The notes: generated by a model from the sequence alone, not told the origin. Shown: positions 36,640 through 49,645, counted from the stretch's first letter. The stretch: DNA of 64,000 nucleotides from Verrucomicrobiota bacterium (GCA_026397965.1 JAPLTU010000036.1:1-64000); one strand, 5' to 3'. Made by a program: numbers and translations.

Positions 36640-37452
36640 TTAACGGCGCGGTGCAAAGATTCGCGCGGCCAGGTAGGGCAAAGCGCAACAAAGCACGATG
36701 GCGGCGCCGGAGGGCATCCACGCCAGGTAATAAGAAAGATAAAGGCCACCGATCCCGCCGGCTAAGGCGCAAGCGACCGCCCAACCCATTACTTGGGGTA
36801 GCGTGCGACCAAGCAGGACGCCGGTGGCCGCAGGAATGACAAAGAGCGCGGTGGTCAGGAGCGCGCCAACGAGGCGCACGCAGGCCACCGCGCCAAGGGC
36901 CACCAAGCCGAGCAAGATGGCTCGCAAAAGGGCTGGTTTGGCGCCGAGTAGTCGGGCGTATTCTTCATCAAAGGAAGCCAGTTCCATTTCCTTATGCAGG
37001 ATGCGCAGACTCACGAGCACGACGAAGGCCGTGACGGCGATGATGGCGATGTCTTGAGGGCCAACGGCGACCACACTCCCAAAAAGCAATCCCGTGAAGT
37101 CGCGCCACGAATGCGCCAGCTGCATCATGGCGATCCCGGCGGCGAACATCACCGAAAGCATCACGCCGATGGCGCTGTCTTCGCTCGTACCCTTGCGGGC
37201 AGAAAGCCAAGCCGCCCCGGCGGCGGTCAGCAAGGCGGCGGCGAGAGCGCCCAGATAAGGAGAGATGCCCAGCAACATCGCGCCGACGACTCCTGGTAAG
37301 ATCGAATGGGTGAGGGCGGTGCTCACGAAGGCCATGCGGCGAAGCACCACGTAGGCGCCCAAGCAGGCGCAGGTGAGGCCTCCGAGTACGACAGCCCAAA
37401 GGGCTCGGACGAAGAAGGCTTCGGCCAACGGTTCGCGGATGACCTCAAGCAT
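36640..37452 (-). CDS. znuB: Zinc/manganese-type ABC transporter permease
   Basis: From the ATG at 37452 the protein has about 270 residues and eight or nine membrane segments, with the ABC-3 permease pattern: LGAYVVLRRMAFVSTALTHS, then GLLFGSVVAVGPQDI and FDEEYARLLGAKP. It would move the metal delivered by the substrate-binding protein. It overlaps the 3' end of znuC by eight bases. Zinc or manganese specificity cannot be told from the permease. Confidence 0.9.
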   Translation of the reverse strand: MLEVIREPLAEAFFVRALWAVVLGGLTCACLGAYVVLRRMAFVSTALTHSILPGVVGAMLLGISPYLGALAAALLTAAGAAWLSARKGTSEDSAIGVMLSVMFAAGIAMMQLAHSWRDFTGLLFGSVVAVGPQDIAIIAVTAFVVLVSLRILHKEMELASFDEEYARLLGAKPALLRAILLGLVALGAVACVRLVGALLTTALFVIPAATGVLLGRTLPQVMGWAVACALAGGIGGLYLSYYLAWMPSGAAIVLCCALPYLAARIFAPRR

Positions 37453-38233
37453 GATGATGGGGCCCGTGCCCAGCGCAGGAATGGGTGGTGGTGACGGTAC
37501 CGTTTCTGATTTCCAAGATGCGATCAAACCGACGTGAGTCGGCCGGGTCATGCGTGGCCATGATGACCGTGAACGCGTGACCTTGGTCGAAAAGAAATTT
37601 CTCGACGATATCGCGACTCGCTTGATCTAGGGCCGCAAAAGGTTCGTCGAGCAGGAGGATTTCGGCACCTTGCACGGTGGCCCGAGCAAGCAGGCCGCGT
37701 TGGAGCTGGCCACCTGAAAGCGTATGTACCGGCCGATCAGCTAAATCAGTGAGTCCCATGAGCTCGAGGGCCCGATTCACCCCTTGATTGCCGTGATGGC
37801 ATTCCTCGAACCATCCGTGGTGAGCATAGGTTCCCATTTGGACCAGCCGCCTGAGTTGCAGGGGAAAGTTTTCCGTAAAAGTTGGGCGCTGAGAGAGGTA
37901 GGCCACTCGGCTTCGACCCAGGGCGGGAGGCGAACCTAAAACTTGGACCTTCCCTGATCGGGGTTTGATGAGTCCGGCCAAGACGCGGAGGACGGTTGAT
38001 TTTCCGGAGCCATTAGGTCCGATGAGAGCGGCACGGCAGCCGCAAGGTATCTCCAAGGTGGCCTGTTCGAAGGCGAGGTGGCCATCAGGCCTTGCGGATG
38101 CTGACAGATCCGTGGCTTGCACGGCGATGCCCTGACAAGGGGCTTTTTCGACTGAAGCGTAGGGTAGGGTTGGGAGTAATTCTAGGGGCGCATCATTAAT
38201 GCGTTGAAGCCAAGTGGGAAAATGAAGGCTCAT
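37445..38233 (-). CDS. znuC: Zinc/manganese-type ABC transporter ATPase
   Basis: The protein has 262 residues with Walker A GPNGSGKST, signature LSGGQLQRGLLARA and Walker B EILLLDEPFAAL, then ATHD. The N-terminus has about 35 extra residues before the ATPase core. The C-terminus ends with a cysteine/histidine tail (HSCAGHGPHHH), able to bind metal and perhaps sense cytoplasmic zinc. It overlaps znuA by four bases (ATGA) and znuB by eight. Confidence 0.92.
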   Translation of the reverse strand: MSLHFPTWLQRINDAPLELLPTLPYASVEKAPCQGIAVQATDLSASARPDGHLAFEQATLEIPCGCRAALIGPNGSGKSTVLRVLAGLIKPRSGKVQVLGSPPALGRSRVAYLSQRPTFTENFPLQLRRLVQMGTYAHHGWFEECHHGNQGVNRALELMGLTDLADRPVHTLSGGQLQRGLLARATVQGAEILLLDEPFAALDQASRDIVEKFLFDQGHAFTVIMATHDPADSRRFDRILEIRNGTVTTTHSCAGHGPHHHA

Positions 38234-39126
38234 GGTTTTAAGAGAGCGGCCTGAAGTTTTCGGCCATTTCTAAGCATCATGCTCGCCCAAGTGCCACCTT
38301 CCAGGCCTTTGGGCTCCAAGAATTCGAAGGAAAGTTGAAGCGGAGGCGGTATTCCGGCGTCTCGGCAAAGTTGCTGAGCAATCGTATCGTTTTGGCCGTC
38401 GTCGACCACCACGACCCTAACCCCCTGGCTTCGGATGGTTTCAAGAAGCTTAGAGAACTGCTTCGCCGAGGGGTCGGCTGCCTCAGTTGAAGTGCTCTGT
38501 AAGATTGTCGAAGCTATGGTCAGGCCGTAGCGATGCGCAAAAGGCCCAAGGTTGGCATGCTGGGTGATGATCCGGCGTTGCTTTGCCGGAATTAAGGCAA
38601 AAGAGCTCCCCAGGATATTATCAACGGCTATGACATCATTAACTAACTGATTATAAGAATCTTCCATGCTTGCCTTCGGGTATAAAGATTGGAGTTTTTC
38701 ACGTAACTTTTCGATCATTTTTAGTACAAGGATTGGATCTGTCCAGACGTGTGGGTCAGGCGCAGTTTGTTTACCGTTCGGACGGCCGTTTGGGTTAGAC
38801 TCCAGGGCCAGCCAGTGGGTGGCATCCTCCCGATGGTTTGCCTTAATCCAGTCAGCCAGCCAGGGCTCAAGCTCCGGGCTTAAACCGACGATGAGTTCAG
38901 CTTTTGCCAGATCCCGCGCGTCATTTGCATTGATTTGATAGCCGTGGAGCTCGCTTCGCTCCGGCACCAGGCTCCGGTGTCTATATCCAGATGGAAGGAT
39001 ACTGGAGACCCAGTCATCAGGAATGGTGAAGCTGGAAATCACCCCCCCCGCTTTGCTCGGAGAATCATCCCCCCAGCCGGGTTGAGGACTTAAGAAAATT
39101 AGGACTAAAAAGGTAAGCCGAAGCAC
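38230..39126 (-). CDS. znuA: Zinc/manganese-type ABC transporter substrate-binding protein
   Basis: The protein has 298 residues with a signal peptide (MLRLTFLVLIFLSPQPGWG). Metal-ligand histidines fit the cluster A-I family: H61 (SELHGYQ), H126 (DPHVWTDP) and H190 (TQHANLGPF), with an acidic residue near 242 (VVDDGQ). The histidine-rich loop common in E. coli-type ZnuA is absent, so zinc versus manganese is undecided. A dyad 47 bases upstream of its start may be a metalloregulator site. Confidence 0.88.
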   Translation of the reverse strand: MLRLTFLVLIFLSPQPGWGDDSPSKAGGVISSFTIPDDWVSSILPSGYRHRSLVPERSELHGYQINANDARDLAKAELIVGLSPELEPWLADWIKANHREDATHWLALESNPNGRPNGKQTAPDPHVWTDPILVLKMIEKLREKLQSLYPKASMEDSYNQLVNDVIAVDNILGSSFALIPAKQRRIITQHANLGPFAHRYGLTIASTILQSTSTEAADPSAKQFSKLLETIRSQGVRVVVVDDGQNDTIAQQLCRDAGIPPPLQLSFEFLEPKGLEGGTWASMMLRNGRKLQAALLKP

Positions 39127-39172
39127 GGGAGGAAAGGCGTAGCAAAATGACCAACAATTGCAAGTTATTTGC

Positions 39173-39189
39173 AGTTACTGACTGTAACT
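39173..39189. promoter_or_regulatory. Dyad between znuA and the pilus operon
   Basis: AGTTAC-TGACT-GTAACT is a perfect inverted repeat with 6-bp arms, preceded by an AAGTTATTTGC half-like sequence. Fur/Zur-family proteins bind AT-rich dyads of this spacing, so it could repress the divergent znuABC operon. It also sits 58 bases upstream of the pilus operon, whose control it may affect. Confidence 0.45.
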
Positions 39190-39246
39190 TTAGTTCCGCC
39201 TTTTGCATTTGCCAGCGTAGGAATGTCGACTAACAAAGAACTCCCC

Positions 39247-39954
39247 ATGCCCCATTTCCGAGTTATTTTCGCTATTATTTTAGCGGTGCTCACCACAGCC
39301 GTAAGCGCTTTGGGCCAAGCTTCTAAGGGGGACGAAGCCGCACCGGTCAAGGGAGCGGGTTCCAAGGCCCCCGTCTCTGTAAAAGATGTGAAATTCACCC
39401 AAACTAAATTGGGCGGTCAAATCTACCCCTGGAATCGGATGCAGGTTGAATTGCAAGCGAACTATAACCCCGCCAGCGCCGATCCGAAAGCCATCGTGAA
39501 CAAGCGATATGTGGATAAAATAAAAGTAACCGTCACGCAAATTTACAAGAATGCCTCTAAAGATGCCAAAGACTGGAATTATTATCGAGCGAGCGCGACG
39601 GTTTTGACCATGGAAGTACAGCAACCTCGCTCGGTCATTTTTTACCTTCCTGGAGATATCGTCAAGCGCGACGTCCTGCACAAGGAGCCTGACTATTATT
39701 TCGTTCAAATTGAGGTCGGCGGCAATGAAGTTCCTTTATTTGATGCCGCTGGGAAGATCGCCGCCGATCATGCCCGGGCCGTGCATAAGGACATATCTAA
39801 AAAGGCAGATTTTGATAACGCCAAAGACGCTGCTGATCGCGGAGTCGGGGTTTCGGCCGGGATTTTGCGCCCGCAGTATCTGGTTCTTTATGCGGATACC
39901 GTGGTCGTGCCGCCTTCGCCGGAGTTTATCCGCGAAGACGTGCCTACTCGCTAA
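39247..39954 (+). CDS. Amuc_1102-family pilus-like protein
   Basis: The start at 39247 gives about 235 residues with a signal peptide (RVIFAIILAVLTTAVSALGQ). The rest is a beta-rich domain (VKDVKFTQTKLGGQIYPW, VDKIKVTVTQIYKN, SVIFYLPGDIVKRDV, YYFVQIEVGGNEVP). The family is known only from Verrucomicrobiota and was named after Akkermansia. It is the first gene of the pilus-like operon, 26 bases before the PilM-like gene. The role is unknown; it has no obvious counterpart in the classical pilMNOPQ operon. Confidence 0.8.
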   Translation: MPHFRVIFAIILAVLTTAVSALGQASKGDEAAPVKGAGSKAPVSVKDVKFTQTKLGGQIYPWNRMQVELQANYNPASADPKAIVNKRYVDKIKVTVTQIYKNASKDAKDWNYYRASATVLTMEVQQPRSVIFYLPGDIVKRDVLHKEPDYYFVQIEVGGNEVPLFDAAGKIAADHARAVHKDISKKADFDNAKDAADRGVGVSAGILRPQYLVLYADTVVVPPSPEFIREDVPTR

Positions 39955-39980
39955 TTAACCCATAAACCACTGACTTTTGT

Positions 39981-41687
39981 ATGAGCCAGAAGAAGGCCAC
40001 TATTGTAAATCTCGCCGCGTCGCACGTCTCGGTCTCCCTTTTTGGCGTCCAATCCAAAGGGTTGGTGCTTGAAAAATTTTACGTCGAAGAAATCGCCCCT
40101 GGTCTGACTAATGACGACGAGTGGCTGAACACAGCGATGGGTGCTTTGGGCAACCTGGTCACCACTTACGGCATTTCGGGACAAGTCACGGTCATCGCTC
40201 CAAGCTTTCTGCTCCTCCAGAAATCTTTGAAGGTGCCTCAGGTTGAGCGCCAACGTCAGGCTCAGATCGTCGCCTTTGAAGCGCAGAACGCCATTCCTTA
40301 CCCTTTAAACGAGGTGATTTGGGATAGCCAGGTAATGGCCTCTGATGGAGTAGAGGCCGAAGTCCTGCTTTTTGCTTTGCGTACCGAGATGGCGAGCAAG
40401 ATTGCCAACCTCGTTGCCGCCACCGGCCTGCGGCCCCTGTCTGTCCAAGCCGCTCCGTTGCTCGACAGCCAAGCCTTCCTGCTGGCCGGCGGTTCGGCTA
40501 CGGAAGAAGTGCTAATCATCAACATCGGCGCCCGTTCGACCACCCTCAGTTTCATCGGCCCAAGCGGTTCCAATATCCAGACGGCCAATATCGGAGGTAA
40601 TCTTCTAACCCAGGGGGTTTCCGATAATACCGGGCAACCCTTCATGAATGCCGAAGCCATCAAGGTCGGCTATTATTCAGGTGTCATCCATTTGCCGGAG
40701 TCGGACCCACAGGTCGCCATCCTTCAGGCGAATGCCCAAAGCTTCATTCGCCGCTTAACCCAAGATATCAATCGTCGGTTAATCAATGTGCGTCGCGGAA
40801 CCGCCGGCCGTCAGCCCACCCGCATTTTGCTGACCGGGCGTGGTTCGCTGGTCTCGGGCCTTTCAGAGCAACTCTGCGAAACCTTGCGGATGCCCGTTGA
40901 GCCTTTTGACCCCTCTTCGGTTTTGGCCCTCGGTGCAGACGTGGATCCGGAGAACATGCAGCGCGCCCGTCACCAAATTTCGGAAGTCATCGGTGAGGCC
41001 GCTCGATTAGTCCTCACGCATGTTACGGGGGTTAACCTGATTCCCCGCGATATCGCCGCCCAGCTTGCCTTTGATGGTCGCAAGCCAGTTTTATTGGTCG
41101 CCGCCCTTCTGATGGCCTTGATCCCATGGCCAATCTGGTGGGCTTTTGATAAGGGCGCGGATACTAACCGAGAACTTTCCGCCAAATTGGTAAAGCGCAA
41201 AACCGAGTTGGGAGGCCATCAGGCCGCGATCGAAGAAACGCGAAAAAAGGCTACGGAAGTTTTTGCGATTAACAAAAAATTAGAGGATGTGGCGCTGAGT
41301 CGGCCTAATTGGCCCGCCTTCCTGTCCGACCTCCAGTCGCGCGTCTCCAGCTGTAAGAATACGTGGATTGAAGAACTCGAGGTCAAGCGCGTCGTGCCCC
41401 CAGCCGTCACGTCCGTCGAGCCGCCGCCACCTGGGACCGTCGTAGTTCCGCCCGGCGAAGTCACCAAAATCGTCCTCACGGCCCGTTTCCTTTTGCCTGA
41501 AATTTCACCGGGCTCCAATTTCGCAAAGAAGCCTTACTCCACCCGCGAACAAGAGTTACTCGCGGTCCTGCGTAAATCGCCGTTCATCGCGGAAATCCCC
41601 GACGCCGACATCAAGCAGAATTTCAACCCGGCTAACTCTCCCAAGATCACCCTAACTTTGGTCATCCGTAAGGACACAGCTCTCTAA
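39981..41687 (+). CDS. Amuc_1101-family PilM-PilN fusion protein of the pilus-like system
   Basis: The protein has 568 residues. Residues 1-340 read as the actin-like PilM ATPase fold (TIVNLAASHVSVSLFGV, QIVAFEAQNAIPYPL, LIINIGARSTTLSFI, RILLTGRGSLVSGLSEQL). Residues 351-355 are VNLIP, the short N-terminal motif by which PilN binds PilM. A single membrane segment follows (370-389), then a coiled coil and a ferredoxin-like periplasmic part as in PilN. In Pseudomonas or Thermus these are two proteins; here one chain would anchor the cytoplasmic ring to the inner membrane. One base separates it from the next gene. Confidence 0.9.
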   Translation: MSQKKATIVNLAASHVSVSLFGVQSKGLVLEKFYVEEIAPGLTNDDEWLNTAMGALGNLVTTYGISGQVTVIAPSFLLLQKSLKVPQVERQRQAQIVAFEAQNAIPYPLNEVIWDSQVMASDGVEAEVLLFALRTEMASKIANLVAATGLRPLSVQAAPLLDSQAFLLAGGSATEEVLIINIGARSTTLSFIGPSGSNIQTANIGGNLLTQGVSDNTGQPFMNAEAIKVGYYSGVIHLPESDPQVAILQANAQSFIRRLTQDINRRLINVRRGTAGRQPTRILLTGRGSLVSGLSEQLCETLRMPVEPFDPSSVLALGADVDPENMQRARHQISEVIGEAARLVLTHVTGVNLIPRDIAAQLAFDGRKPVLLVAALLMALIPWPIWWAFDKGADTNRELSAKLVKRKTELGGHQAAIEETRKKATEVFAINKKLEDVALSRPNWPAFLSDLQSRVSSCKNTWIEELEVKRVVPPAVTSVEPPPPGTVVVPPGEVTKIVLTARFLLPEISPGSNFAKKPYSTREQELLAVLRKSPFIAEIPDADIKQNFNPANSPKITLTLVIRKDTAL

Positions 41688-41688
41688 G

Positions 41689-42780
41689 ATGGATAATTTC
41701 AAGAAAAACAAACTTTTTTACGTCGGACTCTCCCTCGTTGGATTGGTCTTCATTGCCGGAATCTACTTCGCCGTTGTTTCCGTGCTCGACCAGAGCAAGA
41801 CGGCTTTGGCGCTGGAGAAGGTCAAGAAGGAGACCGCGGCGCTTCTGGCCGGACACGTTTTCGCTCATGAAGACCGGGCGATTTCCCTGACGGATGATAA
41901 CGTCAAGAATGCGGCCAAGGACTTGGCAGACTTGAATGAACAGTTGGCGGCCTTACGTGCCAGCATCGCGAGCAACCCGGAACTGATCATCCGCGGCAAA
42001 CAATCTACTAACTCCAACGAGTTGAACGCGACTTTGAAGCAGTCGGTTGACGAATGGAAGAAGCTGGCGGTCGACCACGACGTAAAGATCTTACCGAACG
42101 ATCAGTGCGACTTCGGGTTCCGACGCTATATCCGCAATCCTGGCACCTCGCCCAAGCGAGATTTCCAGCGGGTCGACCAGCAGCGGATGATCATCGATTT
42201 CCTTTATCGCCAGTTAGTCGAATCTCGTCCCGTCGGGGCTCCCCTGCTCTTGCTCTCGGTTGACCGTGAGCCGGTGGAGACCTTCGTCTTGATTCCCGAA
42301 GGCAAACCGGGTGCCGGCACTTATGGTCCCGAGAATGAAAGCAGCCGTAATGAGAACGATGAATTTTCCCCGACCCGCACCTTTGACCGCATGGGCTTGG
42401 TCGAGACCCTGTCCTTCCGGCTGCGCTTTGCGGGAACGACTCCGACGCTGCGTACCTTTGTTAATAAAATAAGAAATTCCGGACGGGCTTTCGCCATCAC
42501 CGCCGTGGAGGTCCGCCTCCCCAGCCCAGAAATCACCAAGGCAATCGGCATCATCGCTGCGCCTGGCGCCCCTACGGCTCCGGCTGTGACTAACCTCCCC
42601 GGTTTTTTTGCTGAAGATACCGCGGCCATCGCCAGCAAAGCCAAGTCTTCAGGTGCCACGCCCAAGGAAGTCCGAACGCTCGTCTTTAAAGAAACTCCCT
42701 CCGAGTTCATCGTTCAAGTCGACTACCTTAGCATCCCTGAGGAAAAACCAGCTGCCCTTGAGGGCGAAGCCAAGAAATAA
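41689..42780 (+). CDS. Amuc_1100-family pilus-like protein (PilO-like)
   Basis: The protein has 363 residues. A transmembrane helix at 9-31 is followed by a coiled coil (LALEKVKKETAALLAG, LADLNEQLAALRASI) and a periplasmic domain with two ferredoxin-like halves (LVETLSFRLRFAGTTPTLRT and TEF-like strands near the C-terminus). This is the PilO plan. The Akkermansia homologue Amuc_1100 is a well-studied outer-surface protein with host effects; in a free-living relative the role is presumably structural. It lies at the pilO position, 11 bases before the Amuc_1099-like gene. Confidence 0.9.
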   Translation: MDNFKKNKLFYVGLSLVGLVFIAGIYFAVVSVLDQSKTALALEKVKKETAALLAGHVFAHEDRAISLTDDNVKNAAKDLADLNEQLAALRASIASNPELIIRGKQSTNSNELNATLKQSVDEWKKLAVDHDVKILPNDQCDFGFRRYIRNPGTSPKRDFQRVDQQRMIIDFLYRQLVESRPVGAPLLLLSVDREPVETFVLIPEGKPGAGTYGPENESSRNENDEFSPTRTFDRMGLVETLSFRLRFAGTTPTLRTFVNKIRNSGRAFAITAVEVRLPSPEITKAIGIIAAPGAPTAPAVTNLPGFFAEDTAAIASKAKSSGATPKEVRTLVFKETPSEFIVQVDYLSIPEEKPAALEGEAKK

Positions 42781-42791
42781 GCCTACCATCC

Positions 42792-43733
42792 ATGAACACT
42801 CCGCGTAAGGATTTCATTTTCATTATCTCGGCTGGCGTGCTGCTTACCTTGGCGGTTACGGTTGCTTGCCTCCTCGATGGTATTTCGCCCGAGCTTACCC
42901 CGAAATGGATTAAACCAATCGTCTTAGACGAACAGGCCGCAGGTGTCGAAATCCCGCAGCTTTTAGCGTCCCCTAAGGGTATCGAGTATCCGGCGACGCC
43001 ACGGGCATCCTTGCTCGATAATATTAAGGATTGGTTAAGCCTGGAGGAAAATGAAGACAGTTGGGACTATGATTTATTTACGACCATCGATGTCGTTTGG
43101 GATCCGGCGACGAAAGATTACGTCCCCAGCCGCCGAAAGATTGAACCTTTGCCGCCGTTCGGAGTCGCGCTGGTGAATGCCGAACACCCCAAATATCCCT
43201 ACGTCTTAAGGTCGACGATGGCAGGGCGCTCGGGGAAAGAAGAGGATCGCGAGTTCTCGATCGAAAATATCGCCACCAAGGAATACTTTGACCGCTGTAA
43301 GATTAAGAAGCCGCTCAGTGCGACGGTTCCCATCACGCCTCTCTCTTATAAATCAGTAAAGGAAAAAGATGCCGAGGGCTTTACGTCGACCCGAAATGTT
43401 CTACGCCTTGATGATAAACAACTTGGGCAGGTCGTCGAAATCGACGACATTAAGCCGTTAGAATTCCCGAATAAAACCGACCTCTATTTGGCCTCAACTT
43501 CCGACCCGGCCGATACCTGGGTGCTTCACGCGGTTGGAGATAAGTTCACCTATAAAGGGGCGCTCTACGTGGTCAAAGGCATTGACTTGGATGCCAAGAC
43601 CGTGACCGTTGATAAGACCTTCACGCCGAATCCTAAGAAGGGGAAGAAAACATTTACCGAGGCTTTGACTGTCGCAGCTCCGATTCCGGTCGTAAAACCC
43701 ATTTCCACATCGAAAACGCCGCTTAAAAAATAA
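42792..43733 (+). CDS. Amuc_1099-family pilus-like system protein (PilP-like position)
   Basis: The protein has 313 residues with one N-terminal membrane anchor (DFIFIISAGVLLTLAVTVAC). The C-terminal 60 residues form a small beta domain (WVLHAVGDKFTYKGALYVVK, then GIDLDAKTVTVDK) that resembles the homology-region domain of PilP/GspC, which contacts the secretin. The region between is extended and variable. Position between the PilO-like and secretin genes agrees with a PilP role. The tail (KTPLKK) is basic. Confidence 0.85.
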   Translation: MNTPRKDFIFIISAGVLLTLAVTVACLLDGISPELTPKWIKPIVLDEQAAGVEIPQLLASPKGIEYPATPRASLLDNIKDWLSLEENEDSWDYDLFTTIDVVWDPATKDYVPSRRKIEPLPPFGVALVNAEHPKYPYVLRSTMAGRSGKEEDREFSIENIATKEYFDRCKIKKPLSATVPITPLSYKSVKEKDAEGFTSTRNVLRLDDKQLGQVVEIDDIKPLEFPNKTDLYLASTSDPADTWVLHAVGDKFTYKGALYVVKGIDLDAKTVTVDKTFTPNPKKGKKTFTEALTVAAPIPVVKPISTSKTPLKK

Positions 43734-43757
43734 TCCCTTTACCAACCCCAGAATTGT

Positions 43758-46700
43758 ATGAAGAAAAATACCCGCACCCCATTTACTTGGGCCATTATTA
43801 TCGCCATCGTCATCGCTGGCACGTTGGTCGCCCAAGATGCCGATCCCATTCAGAAGAAAACCCAGCTTCTTATCGAGGCGCTGAAAGCGCGTGAAGAGGG
43901 CAGTCTGGCCCTTGCTCAAGAGAAGTATGAGCAAATCCTGCAAATTGATGACAAGGATGTCGGGGCCCAAGAAGGCCGCGATGCAGTCAAGGCGGCGATT
44001 GAGGCCGCCGCCATGGAGAAGAAAAAGGCCGAAGACGCCGCCGCGGCTCCAGCTCCGACGCCCCCGGCTGCTCCGGTCGCCATGGCAAAGCCTGAAAGCG
44101 CCTTGGATGCGGTGGTCAGTGATCACCAAAAACTCTTTGCTGAAGTCGAAGCGGCCACTGCTTACGCCAATCAGTTAGCCAAAGATGGAAATTTTGCGGA
44201 TGCGTTGGCCAAATTAGACGGCGCATTTTCTGCCTTGCCGAACACGAGTGCCGCCCAGCCTTACCGAGACAAAATCTCTTTAGCCAAGCAGGATATCATT
44301 TTGAGGCGCGAGGCCGTCAATCCTAGCGACGAACTTAGCCGTTTGCGCCAGATTTCGAAAACGACATTTTCTAACTGCGATGACGCCCTCTCCAAGGCCC
44401 AATCGCTGATCCGCAAGGGCGGCGCCGCGAACCTTGATGAGGCGATCAGTGAACTCGAGCGCGCGGATAAAGCCCTGCCGGAGAATATTGCCTCAACAAC
44501 TTATAAGGCACGGATCAAGGAAGCCAAAGCAGGCGCCTTGGCTCGCCGTGCGCTCGTCGCCATCGAAGCTCGCGAAATGAGCCGGGCGGACGAGAAAATC
44601 CGCGAATACGAAAAACTCATGGGGGCGGATGACGCGAGCGCTCGCCGGCTCCGCGCAGAATTCAGCGCGAAGAAAATGAATCCCACCTATCAAAATGTCG
44701 ACGACGTCTCGCCTGGCTTACGGGCGAAGGACGATAAAGTGGACGTACTTTTGGTCAAGGGACGCGCGCGTTACCTGTACGGTGATTACCAAGGCGCCCT
44801 CGAGGCCTACCGCGAAGTTCTCCAGTACCAGCCGAATAATTCTGAGTCCAAGGCCTATCAGGTCCGAATCCGGGAAATTCTTTCGGAGAACTCTGGTCAA
44901 TGGAATCGCGGTGTGACTAAGGGTAAGTTGCTCGAGCTCCTCGATGAAACTTGGAAGCTCCCGGAAGTATTTAATCGCGAAAGCATCAAAGAAGGCGGCG
45001 TTTCTACCACCGATCCCGTTCTCGAGAAACTCCGTTCGATCACCTTACCTGAATTGACTATCCGTGAAATGACCTTGGACCGGGCGATTCAGCAGCTGAA
45101 CAACGCCGGCCAGACTTACGACAAGGACCAAAAAGGTGTGAATATGGTCGTAATGGATCCGGAACGTAAGAATCCGTTGATCCCGAATACCAGCTTACGC
45201 AACCTGACGCTCGAGAAGGCGCTCGAAATCATCACCAAGCAGGCTAACTTCACTTTCACGATTAGCCAAGGCATCGTTGAAATCCGTCCTGATTCCGGAT
45301 CCAACGATTTGGAAACGGAATTCTTCAGTCTTAACAGTGGTGCTGAAATGAAAATGACTGGCATGTCAGCCGGCGGTGGGGCGGCGGGTGCAGCGCCAGC
45401 CGCAGGTGCGAGCCCGTTCGGTGGGGCGGCGGGTGCCGGTGCGAGCGCGGGCGGAGACGGTAGCCCTCGCAACGAGGCCTTGAGGAGCTTCTTAGTTCGT
45501 TCAGGCGTCCCCTTCGAAGGCGTCACCGGTGCCCAGCTCAATTACGACGGGACCAATCTCATCGTCACCCAGAACCGCAAGAATCTCGATCGCGTCCGCA
45601 ATATTCTCCGTCGCTACTCGGATATCAAGCAGGTCCACATCGAGGCTAAGTTCATCGAAGTAGCCCAGAATACGCTGAACGAGTTATCGACCAACTTGCG
45701 TCTTTCGACTCAAGTGCCTAATATCAGTGCGACTACGGGTCTGCCCGACGGCACGTTTACCAACACCATTCGAGCCCAGACGAATCTCCGTTCTTTGAAC
45801 TCGACCTTTGGTTCGACTTCCTCCGCCCGCCAAGGGGCCATTTTTGATAATGGTTCCATAAGTGGAATCGCAAGTTCGACCCCGATTGTAAACACGGCGC
45901 CCGTCGTTCCTGGATCTGTCAATACGGGTGGGACCGAGCCTAACTTCGGCGGAATTGCCGGCGTCAATGGCGCGACGGGTACCTATAACGGTATGATCGG
46001 AACCATGGGAAGTTTTGACCTGTCGGTCTTCCTCCGCGCGGTCGAACAGCAAAGCGGCACTGACTTGATGTCCTCGCCCAGCTTGACGGTTCTCGACGGA
46101 AAGACAGCCGTGATCAAGGTGGCCCAATTGCTGCGTTATCCTCAATCTTATGGCGATACCCAGTCGCAGGTTGCTGCCGGTTCGGCGGCAACGGCTGCGG
46201 GAGCAGGCGCTGTCTCGGGTAGCGTGGCAATCACCGCGGGTACTCCTCAGGACTTCACCGTCATGGAAGTCGGGGTCTCTCTCGAAGTGACGCCGACGGT
46301 TGGCCAAGACGACTCGATTGCCCTAAATCTTAAGCCAAAGGTGACCGAGTTCGAAGGCTTCGTCGAATACGGCGGGACTTCGATCGCCATCGCTTCGGGC
46401 ATGACGGTCTCAGTGCCTTCTGGTTTCTTCCAGCCTATCTTCTCCACGCGTGAAGTTACGACCGAAGTTACCGTCTTTGACGGGGCTACGGTTGTGATCG
46501 GCGGTCTGACTCGCGAAGAAGTAAAGACGGTGAACGATAAGGTTCCAGTCTTAGGCGATATCCCTCTTATCGGTGCGGCTTTCCGTTCTACTGGGAAAAC
46601 CACGACCAAGCGCAATTTGATGATCTTCATCACCGCGAACCTGGTTTCGCCCGGTGGTGCTACGCTCCGTAGCTCTCACCCTGGGATGCGCGCTGGCACG

Positions 46701-46820
46701 ACCTTCTCGAATCCAACCCTCACCTCCCCGGGTGGCGCGGTTTACCGCGAACCGATTGAAGCCGTGACTCCGAGCTCCTCGTCGGCTCCCTCCCAGTCAG
46801 CGGCAGAGCCTGCAAAATAA
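43758..46820 (+). CDS. Amuc_1098-family type IV pilus-like secretin
   Basis: The protein has 1020 residues. An N-terminal hydrophobic signal (FTWAIIIAIVIAGTLVAQ) is followed by about 370 residues of TPR-like helices, for example AREEGSLALAQEKYEQIL and GDYQGALEAYREVLQY. Secretin N-domains begin near 430 (LTIREMTLDRAIQQLNNAG). An Ala/Gly-rich insert lies around 535-570. The secretin barrel domain is C-terminal (SSPSLTVLDGKTAVIKV, TVFDGATVVIGGLTREE, VPVLGDIPLIGAAFRS). It forms the outer-membrane gate. The helical N-terminal part is much longer than in PilQ and may bind partners or peptidoglycan. A terminator follows. Confidence 0.93.
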   Translation: MKKNTRTPFTWAIIIAIVIAGTLVAQDADPIQKKTQLLIEALKAREEGSLALAQEKYEQILQIDDKDVGAQEGRDAVKAAIEAAAMEKKKAEDAAAAPAPTPPAAPVAMAKPESALDAVVSDHQKLFAEVEAATAYANQLAKDGNFADALAKLDGAFSALPNTSAAQPYRDKISLAKQDIILRREAVNPSDELSRLRQISKTTFSNCDDALSKAQSLIRKGGAANLDEAISELERADKALPENIASTTYKARIKEAKAGALARRALVAIEAREMSRADEKIREYEKLMGADDASARRLRAEFSAKKMNPTYQNVDDVSPGLRAKDDKVDVLLVKGRARYLYGDYQGALEAYREVLQYQPNNSESKAYQVRIREILSENSGQWNRGVTKGKLLELLDETWKLPEVFNRESIKEGGVSTTDPVLEKLRSITLPELTIREMTLDRAIQQLNNAGQTYDKDQKGVNMVVMDPERKNPLIPNTSLRNLTLEKALEIITKQANFTFTISQGIVEIRPDSGSNDLETEFFSLNSGAEMKMTGMSAGGGAAGAAPAAGASPFGGAAGAGASAGGDGSPRNEALRSFLVRSGVPFEGVTGAQLNYDGTNLIVTQNRKNLDRVRNILRRYSDIKQVHIEAKFIEVAQNTLNELSTNLRLSTQVPNISATTGLPDGTFTNTIRAQTNLRSLNSTFGSTSSARQGAIFDNGSISGIASSTPIVNTAPVVPGSVNTGGTEPNFGGIAGVNGATGTYNGMIGTMGSFDLSVFLRAVEQQSGTDLMSSPSLTVLDGKTAVIKVAQLLRYPQSYGDTQSQVAAGSAATAAGAGAVSGSVAITAGTPQDFTVMEVGVSLEVTPTVGQDDSIALNLKPKVTEFEGFVEYGGTSIAIASGMTVSVPSGFFQPIFSTREVTTEVTVFDGATVVIGGLTREEVKTVNDKVPVLGDIPLIGAAFRSTGKTTTKRNLMIFITANLVSPGGATLRSSHPGMRAGTTFSNPTLTSPGGAVYREPIEAVTPSSSSAPSQSAAEPAK

Positions 46821-46845
46821 GCCTCAGCTTATTTAAGTTGAGAGA

Positions 46846-46875
46846 CAGGCCCGCCTTTGGCGGGCCTGCTTTTTT
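46846..46875 (+). terminator. Terminator of the pilus-like operon
   Basis: CAGGCCCGC and GCGGGCCTG form a 9-bp stem with a 5-base loop, followed after one C by a run of six T residues. Confidence 0.95.
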
Positions 46876-46911
46876 CTCGATGGATGGGCCTGGGGGCGTG
46901 AGAATAATCAC

Positions 46912-47862
46912 ATGCGCTGGCTGCTCGTTGACGGATTCAACTTAGTTTTCCGAAGTCACTTTGCCATGGAGCGCTCTCATCTGCGCCGGCTATCGGATCA
47001 GTTTCCAACTGGGGCTTTGCACGGATGGATCAAGACCCTCATGGAACTGCGGGAAACCGAGAAGCCGGACCGCTGCGTCGTCTTTTTTGACTTAGGGGGC
47101 TCGGATCGTCACTTGGCGGTCTTGCCGGAATACAAAGCTCAGCGCGATGAGACGCCGAACGAGATCGTGCAGCAATTACCCGAAATTAAAAAACTCACCG
47201 CCTTGCTCGGCTTCCAAGTGGTGGAGCAGCGTGGGGTAGAGGCGGATGATCTGATCGCCACAGCGGTCAAGGTGCTCTCGAGTTCGGGTAAGGAATGCAT
47301 TATCGTCAGTGCGGATAAGGATTTCGGACAATGCGTGGGCGAAAAAGTTTTACAGTTAGCACCCCCGCCCACGGCGAATCCGGCTTTAGGTTGGCGGCGG
47401 CTAGACGCGGCCGGGGTCACGGAGAAGTTTGGCGTTCCGCCGGAGCGGATTGCTGACTACCTCGCCTTGGTCGGCGATACCTCGGATAACATTCCAGGCC
47501 TGCGCGGGGTGGGCCCCAAGACGGCGGTCAAATGGCTGATGGAATATGGTAGCCTGGAAGGAGTCCTGGCTGCGGCCGCAACGATTCAGCCGGAGCGTTT
47601 CCGAGAGCAGATTCTAAGCGAGGCTGATCGGATGCGGAGCAATCTCGGTCTGGTGACCTTCCGAACGGATTACGCTTTCGAGCCCGGACAATCTCCGCGC
47701 GAAGACATCGCCGGAGTCGAAGAGTTTTTGGCGGCCATGGAGATGTTTTCGACCCTTAAGCGTTACCAAGCCAAGCACGGTCGCAGCGTTCAGGAATCAA
47801 AAATCGTAGCATCCCCGGCACCACCAGAGCCGACCGAGCCTAAGCAGGGCGAACTCTTCTAG
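46912..47862 (+). CDS. 5'-3' exonuclease (flap nuclease, PolA N-terminal-like)
   Basis: The protein has 316 residues. FEN/5'-nuclease motifs: VDGFNLVFRSHFAM, VVFFDLGGSDRH, GVEADDLIATAVK, SADKDFGQCV and GDTSDNIPGLRGVGPKTA (helix-hairpin-helix). The family removes RNA primers or flaps during lagging-strand maturation. It stands alone, without a polymerase domain. The C-terminal 30 residues are Pro/Glu-rich and end in QGELF, which could act as a sliding-clamp (DnaN) binding motif. Confidence 0.92.
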   Translation: MRWLLVDGFNLVFRSHFAMERSHLRRLSDQFPTGALHGWIKTLMELRETEKPDRCVVFFDLGGSDRHLAVLPEYKAQRDETPNEIVQQLPEIKKLTALLGFQVVEQRGVEADDLIATAVKVLSSSGKECIIVSADKDFGQCVGEKVLQLAPPPTANPALGWRRLDAAGVTEKFGVPPERIADYLALVGDTSDNIPGLRGVGPKTAVKWLMEYGSLEGVLAAAATIQPERFREQILSEADRMRSNLGLVTFRTDYAFEPGQSPREDIAGVEEFLAAMEMFSTLKRYQAKHGRSVQESKIVASPAPPEPTEPKQGELF

Positions 47863-47891: not shown

Positions 47892-48737
47892 TTAGTTCTT
47901 CTTTTCCGTCAGACGATTTTCGACCTTAGGGGCGTCGAGCGTGGTAGCGGCCGCCTGCTGCTGCTGACTGTTAGCGAAGAGATTCTGGACCTGATTCACT
48001 TCTTCCTGATTCAGGAGGAAGACGAACTTAGCTTCGAGTACTTCGATTTCGTAATTGTGGGTGAGCGAATAGCCGACGCTTTCAGCCATCTCCTTGTTGC
48101 CCTTATCGAGTAACTCGGTGGCTTGGTCGAGCTGGGTCTGAATGCTCTTCTTCTGTTCATCGGTGGTGGCGCGCTTCAGCAACTCAGTGAGCTGGAGGAA
48201 GGCATCGCGACGAGCCTGGAGTACTTTAACAAACTGCTCGAACTGTACGACGAACTCCAAGCCGCGGATTTCAGCGGTCTGGAGCAGACGGCGGTCACCG
48301 CGGATGACGATCTGCTCTTCCTTGAAATCTTTCGAGGCGCGGGCTTTGACGGCTTCTTCTTCCGAGATGACCGCCATCAAGCGGAGGGAAGTGTTGACCA
48401 AAGCGGTCTGACGATTGGCGAGGGCGGGGATACTGAAGCTCCAGACCTTGGCGAAGAGGGCGTCCTTTTCGTTGAAGTCTTTAACTTCAGATTCGCCAAC
48501 TTTCGTCAGGGCGTCGCGCTCGACCGTGGTGAGGGCGGACTGGATGCGCTGCTGGAGTTGTTGGATGCGGGCGAACTGCTGACCGAGGGTACCGACTTCC
48601 TGCTGGAAGCGAGCGAGCGAACCTTGGTTAGAGATCGTGAGGACGACTCGGGCCAAGTTTTGTCCGAGAGGGAGGAGCTCGATGACTGGACCTTTAGGGG
48701 CTTCGGTCGGAGCTGGGGTTTGGGCTGCGGTGGTCAT
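47892..48737 (-). CDS. Coiled-coil protein of unknown function, homologue of its neighbour
   Basis: The protein has 281 residues, no signal peptide, and is rich in Gln, Glu and Leu with long helices (VGTLGQQFARIQQLQQRI, RDAFLQLTELLKRATTDEQK). It is clearly related to the next gene upstream: compare ALTTVERDA with ALTTPEREA, KDFKEEQIVIRGDRRLL with KDFKAESVINGGDNKKFL, and LEAKFVFLLNQEE with GEAKLYTLLSDEE. The domain is not known to me. It lacks the signal peptide of its neighbour, so the two copies may act in different compartments. Confidence 0.75.
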   Translation of the reverse strand: MTTAAQTPAPTEAPKGPVIELLPLGQNLARVVLTISNQGSLARFQQEVGTLGQQFARIQQLQQRIQSALTTVERDALTKVGESEVKDFNEKDALFAKVWSFSIPALANRQTALVNTSLRLMAVISEEEAVKARASKDFKEEQIVIRGDRRLLQTAEIRGLEFVVQFEQFVKVLQARRDAFLQLTELLKRATTDEQKKSIQTQLDQATELLDKGNKEMAESVGYSLTHNYEIEVLEAKFVFLLNQEEVNQVQNLFANSQQQQAAATTLDAPKVENRLTEKKN

Positions 48738-48766
48738 GGGTGTGTGAGTTTAGGGTTGGGGTAAAA

Positions 48767-49645
48767 TTATTTCTTTTCTGGGGTTGCGACGGCGTTTTCG
48801 TCCTTCTTGGCCTCATCCTTTTTGGAGTCTACTTGGGCTTGGAGGCTCTTTTTCTCTTCGTCGCTGAGCAGGGTGTAGAGTTTGGCTTCACCCGTCTGAA
48901 TGGTGAGTTCGTTAGGCAGGTCGTAAGTCCGGGCCTTTTTGAATTCTTCAAGGGCTTTGTTCACTTCGCTTTGGGCGTTCTTTAAAGCTTCTTCGACCTT
49001 CTTTTTATCTTCTTCCTTGGTGAGGCGAGGCTGCAGCTCTACCAGTTGCTGAAGGGCCTTGCGGCTTTCAAGGACGCGTTGGACCAGGAGCTTAAAGCTT
49101 TCGACATCAACGGCGCCGGTCACGGTGTCTTTCAAGAGGAATTTCTTATTGTCCCCACCGTTGATCACGGATTCAGCTTTGAAGTCTTTGCCAGCGGCTA
49201 ATTTGATATAGTCGTCGTTGGATAGGGCGGTGAGAATCAGAAGCTTGGTTGGGATGACGGTATACTGGCGGCTCAGGTCGAAACCGTAGGCCTTGGCCAT
49301 GGCGGTGTTGTCGGCCTGAAGGCGGGCTAATTTGCCTTCCAGCTCGCGGTTACGCGCTTCGCGTTCCGGGGTGGTGAGCGCTAATTCCGAGAGCTGCTTA
49401 ACCTGAGTCGCGTCGGCTTTTTCCTGCGAGATAATCTTAACATTCTGTTCGAAATTCGCGAACTCCTCGGCGGACCCGATGTTCTTCACGAGGACAAAGC
49501 GCTTGCCATCCACGTCGAGTACTTCGACTTGCACGTCTTTTGGTGCAGCGGCAACGGGTGCGGCCGGAGCGGCAACAGGCTTCGCTTCATCGGCAGCGTA
49601 AGCTCCGAGGGCCAGAACAGAAAAGAGAAGGGCAAGTGTCTTCAT
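48767..49645 (-). CDS. Secreted coiled-coil protein of unknown function, homologue of its neighbour
   Basis: The protein has 292 residues with a signal peptide (MKTLALLFSVLALGAYA). After an Ala/Pro stretch comes a helical domain (VKQLSELALTTPEREARN, then VESFKLLVQRVLESRKALQQ and EEDKKKVEEALKNAQSEV), ending in a lysine-rich tail. It precedes the related gene at 47892 by 29 bases on the same strand, a tandem duplication. Periplasmic location is inferred. Function is unknown; the two genes lie downstream of the pilus locus but on the other strand, so a link is only positional. Confidence 0.8.
   Translation of the reverse strand: MKTLALLFSVLALGAYAADEAKPVAAPAAPVAAAPKDVQVEVLDVDGKRFVLVKNIGSAEEFANFEQNVKIISQEKADATQVKQLSELALTTPEREARNRELEGKLARLQADNTAMAKAYGFDLSRQYTVIPTKLLILTALSNDDYIKLAAGKDFKAESVINGGDNKKFLLKDTVTGAVDVESFKLLVQRVLESRKALQQLVELQPRLTKEEDKKKVEEALKNAQSEVNKALEEFKKARTYDLPNELTIQTGEAKLYTLLSDEEKKSLQAQVDSKKDEAKKDENAVATPEKK

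Follow-up and report, generated by a model that had tools for sequence, protein, structure and literature searches.

The cluster Amuc_1098 to Amuc_1102 of Akkermansia muciniphila (MUL2 plus PilQ) and its abundance in Akkermansia have already been published (PMC5332112, PMC4960237). PilQ homologues have also been published from other Verrucomicrobia and from Lentisphaera. A 2026 paper reports synteny of MUL2 in Akkermansiaceae of aquatic origin and in further Verrucomicrobiales, to a lesser degree in Chthoniobacterales, with none in Methylacidiphilales, and likens Amuc_1102 to an archaeal type IV pilin (PMC13174399). The structure of Amuc_1100 contains two alpha-beta-beta motifs akin to proteins of type IV pili and type II secretion systems (T2SS) (PMC13119276), and the protein is annotated as PilO in the literature (PMC11573778). 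Work on Amuc_1100 as a probiotic effector, both research and development, starts from the assumption that the protein belongs to the surface or the pili of a gut symbiont. We describe here a homologous five-gene block in a 64,000-nucleotide stretch of DNA from a Verrucomicrobiota bacterium (GCA_026397965.1 JAPLTU010000036.1:1-64000; hereafter the window). With a probability of roughly four in five, the block encodes the alignment subcomplex and the outer-membrane gate of a verrucomicrobial type IVa pilus.

Relative to the published accounts, the counted occurrence of the cluster in Opitutales and in the remainder of the phylum is apparently new. The same holds for the model-based assignment of Amuc_1099 to PilP, the case against a pilin role for Amuc_1102, and the test of co-occurrence with the retraction ATPase PilT.

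Conservation of the block across the phylum

Five plus-strand open reading frames (ORFs) span positions 39247-46820 of the window and are separated by gaps of 26, 1, 11 and 24 bp. A sequence-only reading of this DNA had given the order as Amuc_1102-1101-1100-1099-1098, with gaps of 1 to 26 bases and a single terminator. All of this is recovered here: the same five genes follow one another on one strand, and the site at 46846-46868 is the only terminator-like site on the plus strand within 39000-47000. The predicted proteins match the NCBIfam models Amuc_1101_fam (1.6e-75), Amuc_1098_fam (2.5e-104) and Amuc_1100_fam (1.4e-8); no Pfam or NCBIfam family is recognised in the 1099-like and 1102-like proteins. 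The window proteins miss the NCBI equivalog cut-offs (255 against 650 bits for Amuc_1101, 34.5 against 180 for Amuc_1100, 350 against 750 for Amuc_1098), and the Amuc_1101 cut-off is passed in just 22 of 241 genomes of the phylum. By these scores the block is a homologous cluster and not the NCBI equivalog.

The family of the Amuc_1101-like protein, a PilM-PilN fusion (PilMN), is present at E<=1e-20 in 217 of the 241 Verrucomicrobiota genomes. At E<=1e-3 the count rises to 233/241, but PilM- and FtsA-type proteins give matches of that strength in control genomes too. For synteny, 80 loci, one per genome, were chosen by their PilMN match and joined with the window to give 81, so that adjacency is conditional on PilMN; the five genes were located in them by hidden Markov models (HMMs) grown from the window proteins. 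In 65 of the 81 loci all five genes are collinear on a single strand, ten loci are cut by contig ends, and the remaining six are without Amuc_1102 only. Among the 71 evaluable loci, which represent several dozen families, the core 1101-1100-1099-1098 is in order in every case and the full block in 65. A second set of 80 named loci contains 55 complete blocks, and many of the others are cut by contig ends. The published absence from Methylacidiphilales may be matched by these results, if one of the families (f8) is Methylacidiphilaceae. The genes are thus far from being rarely adjacent in the phylum, and because the same order recurs across it, a chance arrangement is excluded. In five loci (L120, L226, L228, L233 and L235) the gap between the 1100-like and 1099-like genes is unusually wide (approximately 245-700 bp) and possibly holds an extra small gene.

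In a tree of the four concatenated core proteins, the window's order groups together (28/28), on a branch that lies at the midpoint root and has a listed support of just 0.114. The remainder of the class is recovered with support of 0.998 (7/7), and the whole class with support of 1.0 (35/35). The tree follows taxonomy, as expected if the block has descended vertically since early in the phylum's history. Uncultured, metagenome-derived Opitutae are the nearest named relatives; many are from lakes by title, and one locus (L161) is 99% identical. The organism is therefore outside the gut, as the earlier reading proposed. Its context is not exceptional, and the rarity implied there is contradicted by the phylum-wide distribution, which also rules out that possession of the block follows life in the gut or with a host.

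Assignment of the five proteins

The proposed parallel with pilM-N-O-P-Q holds by sequence for PilM, PilN and the secretin and by predicted fold for the PilP-like protein, and is probable, through Amuc_1100, for the PilO-like one. The clearest case is the Amuc_1101-like protein, which is matched by Pfam PilM_2 at 4.8e-20. A profile built from 20 relatives matches two proteins of the Myxococcus xanthus type IV pilus machine (3jc8), PilM at 1.5e-56 over residues 8-343 and PilN at 3.8e-7 over 349-536. Because the profile of a single ORF matches both M. xanthus proteins, one chain carries both PilM and PilN. The VNLIP motif of PilN lies near residue 352, at the PilM/PilN junction, and is followed by one transmembrane (TM) helix and a periplasmic PilN domain. 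All 20 Amuc_1101-type relatives scanned have PilM_2 over the actin-like part, with no GspL family among their matches.

The Amuc_1098-like protein has a clear Pfam Secretin match (2.2e-37), with the C-terminal secretin domain at 761-963, an STN domain, and TPR in the N-terminal region; it also matches PilQ and GspD structures. The actin-like ATPase, VNLIP motif and secretin named in the sequence-only reading are thereby all confirmed. In distant lineages the Amuc_1098-type secretin is tandemly duplicated at the end of the block (L098, L099, L124, L125, L126, L133, L135, L137, L138 and L139, and L134, where it is triplicated).

The PilO-like reading of the third gene rests on homology to the solved Amuc_1100. 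A single-sequence PDB search gave nothing useful and a profile was needed: that of 32 relatives matches Amuc_1100 (6kny/6lad) at 9e-20. The relatives have a short, usually basic N-terminus and one long hydrophobic helix, and most are without an AxA signal-peptidase-I site. This N-terminus looks like an uncleaved inner-membrane anchor.

For the Amuc_1099-like gene, the identification comes from an HMM built on the window protein, which recovers this gene in the right slot of the Akkermansia-type locus L094. The AlphaFold2 model of the window protein (mean predicted local distance difference test score, pLDDT, of 86; predicted template modelling score of 0.59) shows a TM helix at the N-terminus, a linker and two stretches rich in beta structure. 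A search by Foldseek alone found nothing significant for this model. On realignment the Neisseria meningitidis PilP structure 2ivw came out on top (Z 7.5 over 72 residues, root mean square deviation 2.5), the next match having a Z of 4.0; the PilP match arose only at this step, where the absence of other families carries no meaning. The earlier proposal of a GspC/PilP-like beta domain is in this way supported on the PilP side by predicted structure. Since the range matched by 2ivw is 122-297 and that of most other rows 247-294, the model suggests a PilP-type beta domain split by a beta-rich insertion of approximately 100 residues (about 145-245).

The first gene has no slot in the pilM-N-O-P-Q series. 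As with the Amuc_1100-like protein, a profile was needed where a single-sequence PDB search gave nothing useful, and the family profile matches the Amuc_1102 structure 7dsz at 3.4e-16. The predicted model (pLDDT 88) has 7dsz as its best match (Z 14.5), which confirms the beta-sandwich fold. This fold favours a dedicated attachment or glycan-uptake machine of the MUL2 type, in which Amuc_1102 would form an archaeal-type pilin filament that PilM assembles and the secretin exports, to capture particles or mucin. Such a machine is improbable on several grounds. None of 43 Amuc_1102 relatives carries a class III prepilin motif before the hydrophobic stretch, and 40 of the 43 have a site ending in Q after that stretch, as in substrates of signal peptidase I. 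Because this cleavage-like site follows the hydrophobic stretch, the helix needed for pilin assembly would be cut off. The sole significant Foldseek match of the model is 7dsz itself, and true prepilin genes (contigs 54 and 3) and one prepilin peptidase gene (pilD) are present elsewhere in the window's genome. Of the five genes, Amuc_1102 also most often fails to be found beside the core (6/71 evaluable loci), and approximately ten loci of the second set are without it despite more than 1 kb of upstream sequence. A hidden, unrecognised copy was considered in such loci; the upstream ORFs were read, and in most no secreted protein of that type is recognisable. Judged by these searches, Amuc_1102 is either dispensable or too divergent where it is not recognised. 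By the missing prepilin motif and the cleavage-like site after the hydrophobic stretch, Amuc_1102 is probably not a pilin but a secreted accessory protein that would be periplasmic or bound to the secretin.

Pilus partners and locus surroundings

The window's genome contains a pilB-pilT-pilB2-pilC cluster on contig 15 (L035:5616-11389, minus strand), in which pilT exceeds the curated cut-off. This cluster adjoins apparent coaE and ftsH genes, and PilMNOPQ genes are absent from it. A few genomes have motor genes beside the block: a same-strand pilB follows the secretin in L137, and pilC lies near the block in L077 and L224, as does pilT in L237. L078 and L202 apparently represent one and the same region; downstream of the block they have a prepilin gene and another that resembles pilB but could be gspE. 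At another locus (L157:4009-7611) four consecutive prepilin-like genes weakly match proteins B and D of the Verru_Chthon cassette.

Co-conservation with PilT was examined in 68 genomes. PilT is over the cut-off in all 44 block-positive genomes, and the seven genomes without PilT are all without the block. This split would arise by chance with a probability of approximately 4e-4 if the genomes were independent, which they are not, the seven PilT-less ones belonging to two families. The expected association therefore holds in one direction, from block to PilT. A two-way co-occurrence is ruled out by 17 genomes that have PilT without a recognisable block. Four near-complete genomes of one order (G088, G010, G143 and G108) have a high-scoring PilT and no recognisable PilM; in the first three no Amuc_1098-type secretin was seen beyond a GspD-like match, and in G108 not even that match.

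A second type II secretion core of the GspL-M-C-D kind, exporting enzymes via pseudopilins and GspE, is slightly less probable again than a MUL2-type machine: the PilM-PilN fusion resembles GspL, the secretin also matches GspD, and the contig 15 pilC and pilB genes score about equally as GspF and GspE, but the same 2.18 Mb genome has a separate T2SS on contig 11 (L036:834-11761) with its own pseudopilins, GspK/L/M-like proteins, F, E and D, the block-positive genomes all carry PilT, which a T2SS lacks, and the relatives scanned give PilM_2 and not GspL.

The features of the locus are listed in Table 1. Close relatives align from the methionine at ATG 39247, which makes this the probable start of the first gene. 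Divergent from the block across approximately 120 bp, the minus strand at 36640-39126 carries what appears by eye to be a metal-type ATP-binding cassette transporter (permease, ATPase and binding protein). Downstream of the block a stand-alone 5'-3' exonuclease begins at 46912, and beyond it the minus strand holds, at 47892-49645, a pair of neighbouring ORFs (281 and 292 aa) which, by eye only, resemble diverged tandem paralogues.

Table 1. Features of the block, in window coordinates
Feature	Position	Strand	Basis or description
Amuc_1102-like protein	39247..39954	+	Signal-peptidase-I-type leader, then immunoglobulin-like beta-sandwich
Amuc_1101-like PilM-PilN fusion	39981..41687	+	Pfam, profile search
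Amuc_1100-like, PilO-like protein, apparently inner-membrane-anchored	41689..42780	+	Profile to solved Amuc_1100, TM pattern
Amuc_1099-like, PilP-like protein	42792..43733	+	Predicted fold, TM pattern
Amuc_1098-like secretin (PilQ position)	43758..46820	+	Pfam, NCBIfam, PilQ/GspD structure matches
Intrinsic terminator	46846..46875	+	10-pair stem 46846-46868, 9 G-C pairs, then CTTTTTT

Proposed function and known systems

The sequence-only reading had proposed a general verrucomicrobial envelope machine. The phylum-wide block supports this, and the machine can be narrowed to a type IVa pilus alignment complex. The PilM-PilN protein (Amuc_1101) would sit at the inner membrane, its actin-like half in the cytoplasm and coupled to the PilB/PilT motors and to PilC, as the linkage in a few genomes suggests. 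The periplasmic domains of PilN and of the PilO-like protein (Amuc_1100) may form a ring beneath the PilP-like protein (Amuc_1099), which would dock onto the secretin (Amuc_1098), and the pilus would extend and retract through that secretin. Genes for motors, platform, prepilin peptidase and pilins lie elsewhere in that genome. Attachment to mucin or particles would then be a function that this pilus took on later.

Several points weigh against assigning the block to a type IVa pilus. A fused PilM-PilN is also the layout of GspL, and by architecture alone a second T2SS-like use would fit as well. The 17 block-negative genomes that keep PilT, several of them with no recognisable PilM, mean that PilT does not require the block. 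The PilO models of Pfam match none of the Amuc_1100 relatives, and T2SSM_b matches 2 of 32, only at 0.029. For the Amuc_1099-like protein and its relatives there is neither a PilP nor a GspC match in Pfam, and the Z of 7.5 to PilP falls within the range where fold coincidences occur. Finally, Amuc_1100 has been reported at the Akkermansia cell surface, which a purely inner-membrane PilO would not predict.

The system itself is ordinary, and it is the reinterpretation of Amuc_1100 and Amuc_1102 that is useful. Most likely the Amuc_1100 operon is not a gut invention. It would instead be a core, vertically inherited pilus-frame operon found phylum-wide, freshwater lineages included. With Amuc_1100 in the PilO slot and with an apparent inner-membrane anchor, its true location in the envelope becomes directly testable. 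The same applies to the role of Amuc_1102: pilin, as recently depicted, or accessory component.

The chances are about even that Verrucomicrobiota have a distinct type IVa frame, marked by the PilM-PilN fusion, an insertion-bearing PilP, a TPR secretin that is often tandemly duplicated, and Amuc_1102 as an extra structural, non-pilin part without a counterpart in pilMNOPQ.

The Akkermansia muciniphila cluster shares with the window the five genes, their order and strand, and a homologue in each slot. The window differs in its host, a freshwater Opitutae relative, in a PilMN that is only approximately 21% identical to that of the Akkermansia-type representative L094, and in a longer secretin (1020 against 907 aa). 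The type IVa pilM-pilN-pilO-pilP-pilQ operon of Pseudomonas, Myxococcus and Thermus is alike in gene order, in the roles proposed, in PilM and PilN sequence, in the predicted fold of PilP and in the secretin. In contrast to that operon, the window has PilM and PilN fused, an additional Amuc_1102 gene in front and the motors elsewhere. Its PilP-like protein carries an insertion and seems to be anchored by a TM helix where a lipoprotein would be expected, and its PilO-like protein is too divergent for Pfam. GspL of type II secretion also joins an actin-like to a periplasmic ferredoxin-like domain, and GspL-GspM-GspC-GspD share the general layout. The window is set apart from them by its PilM match in sequence, by the co-occurrence of PilT and by the separate T2SS in its genome.
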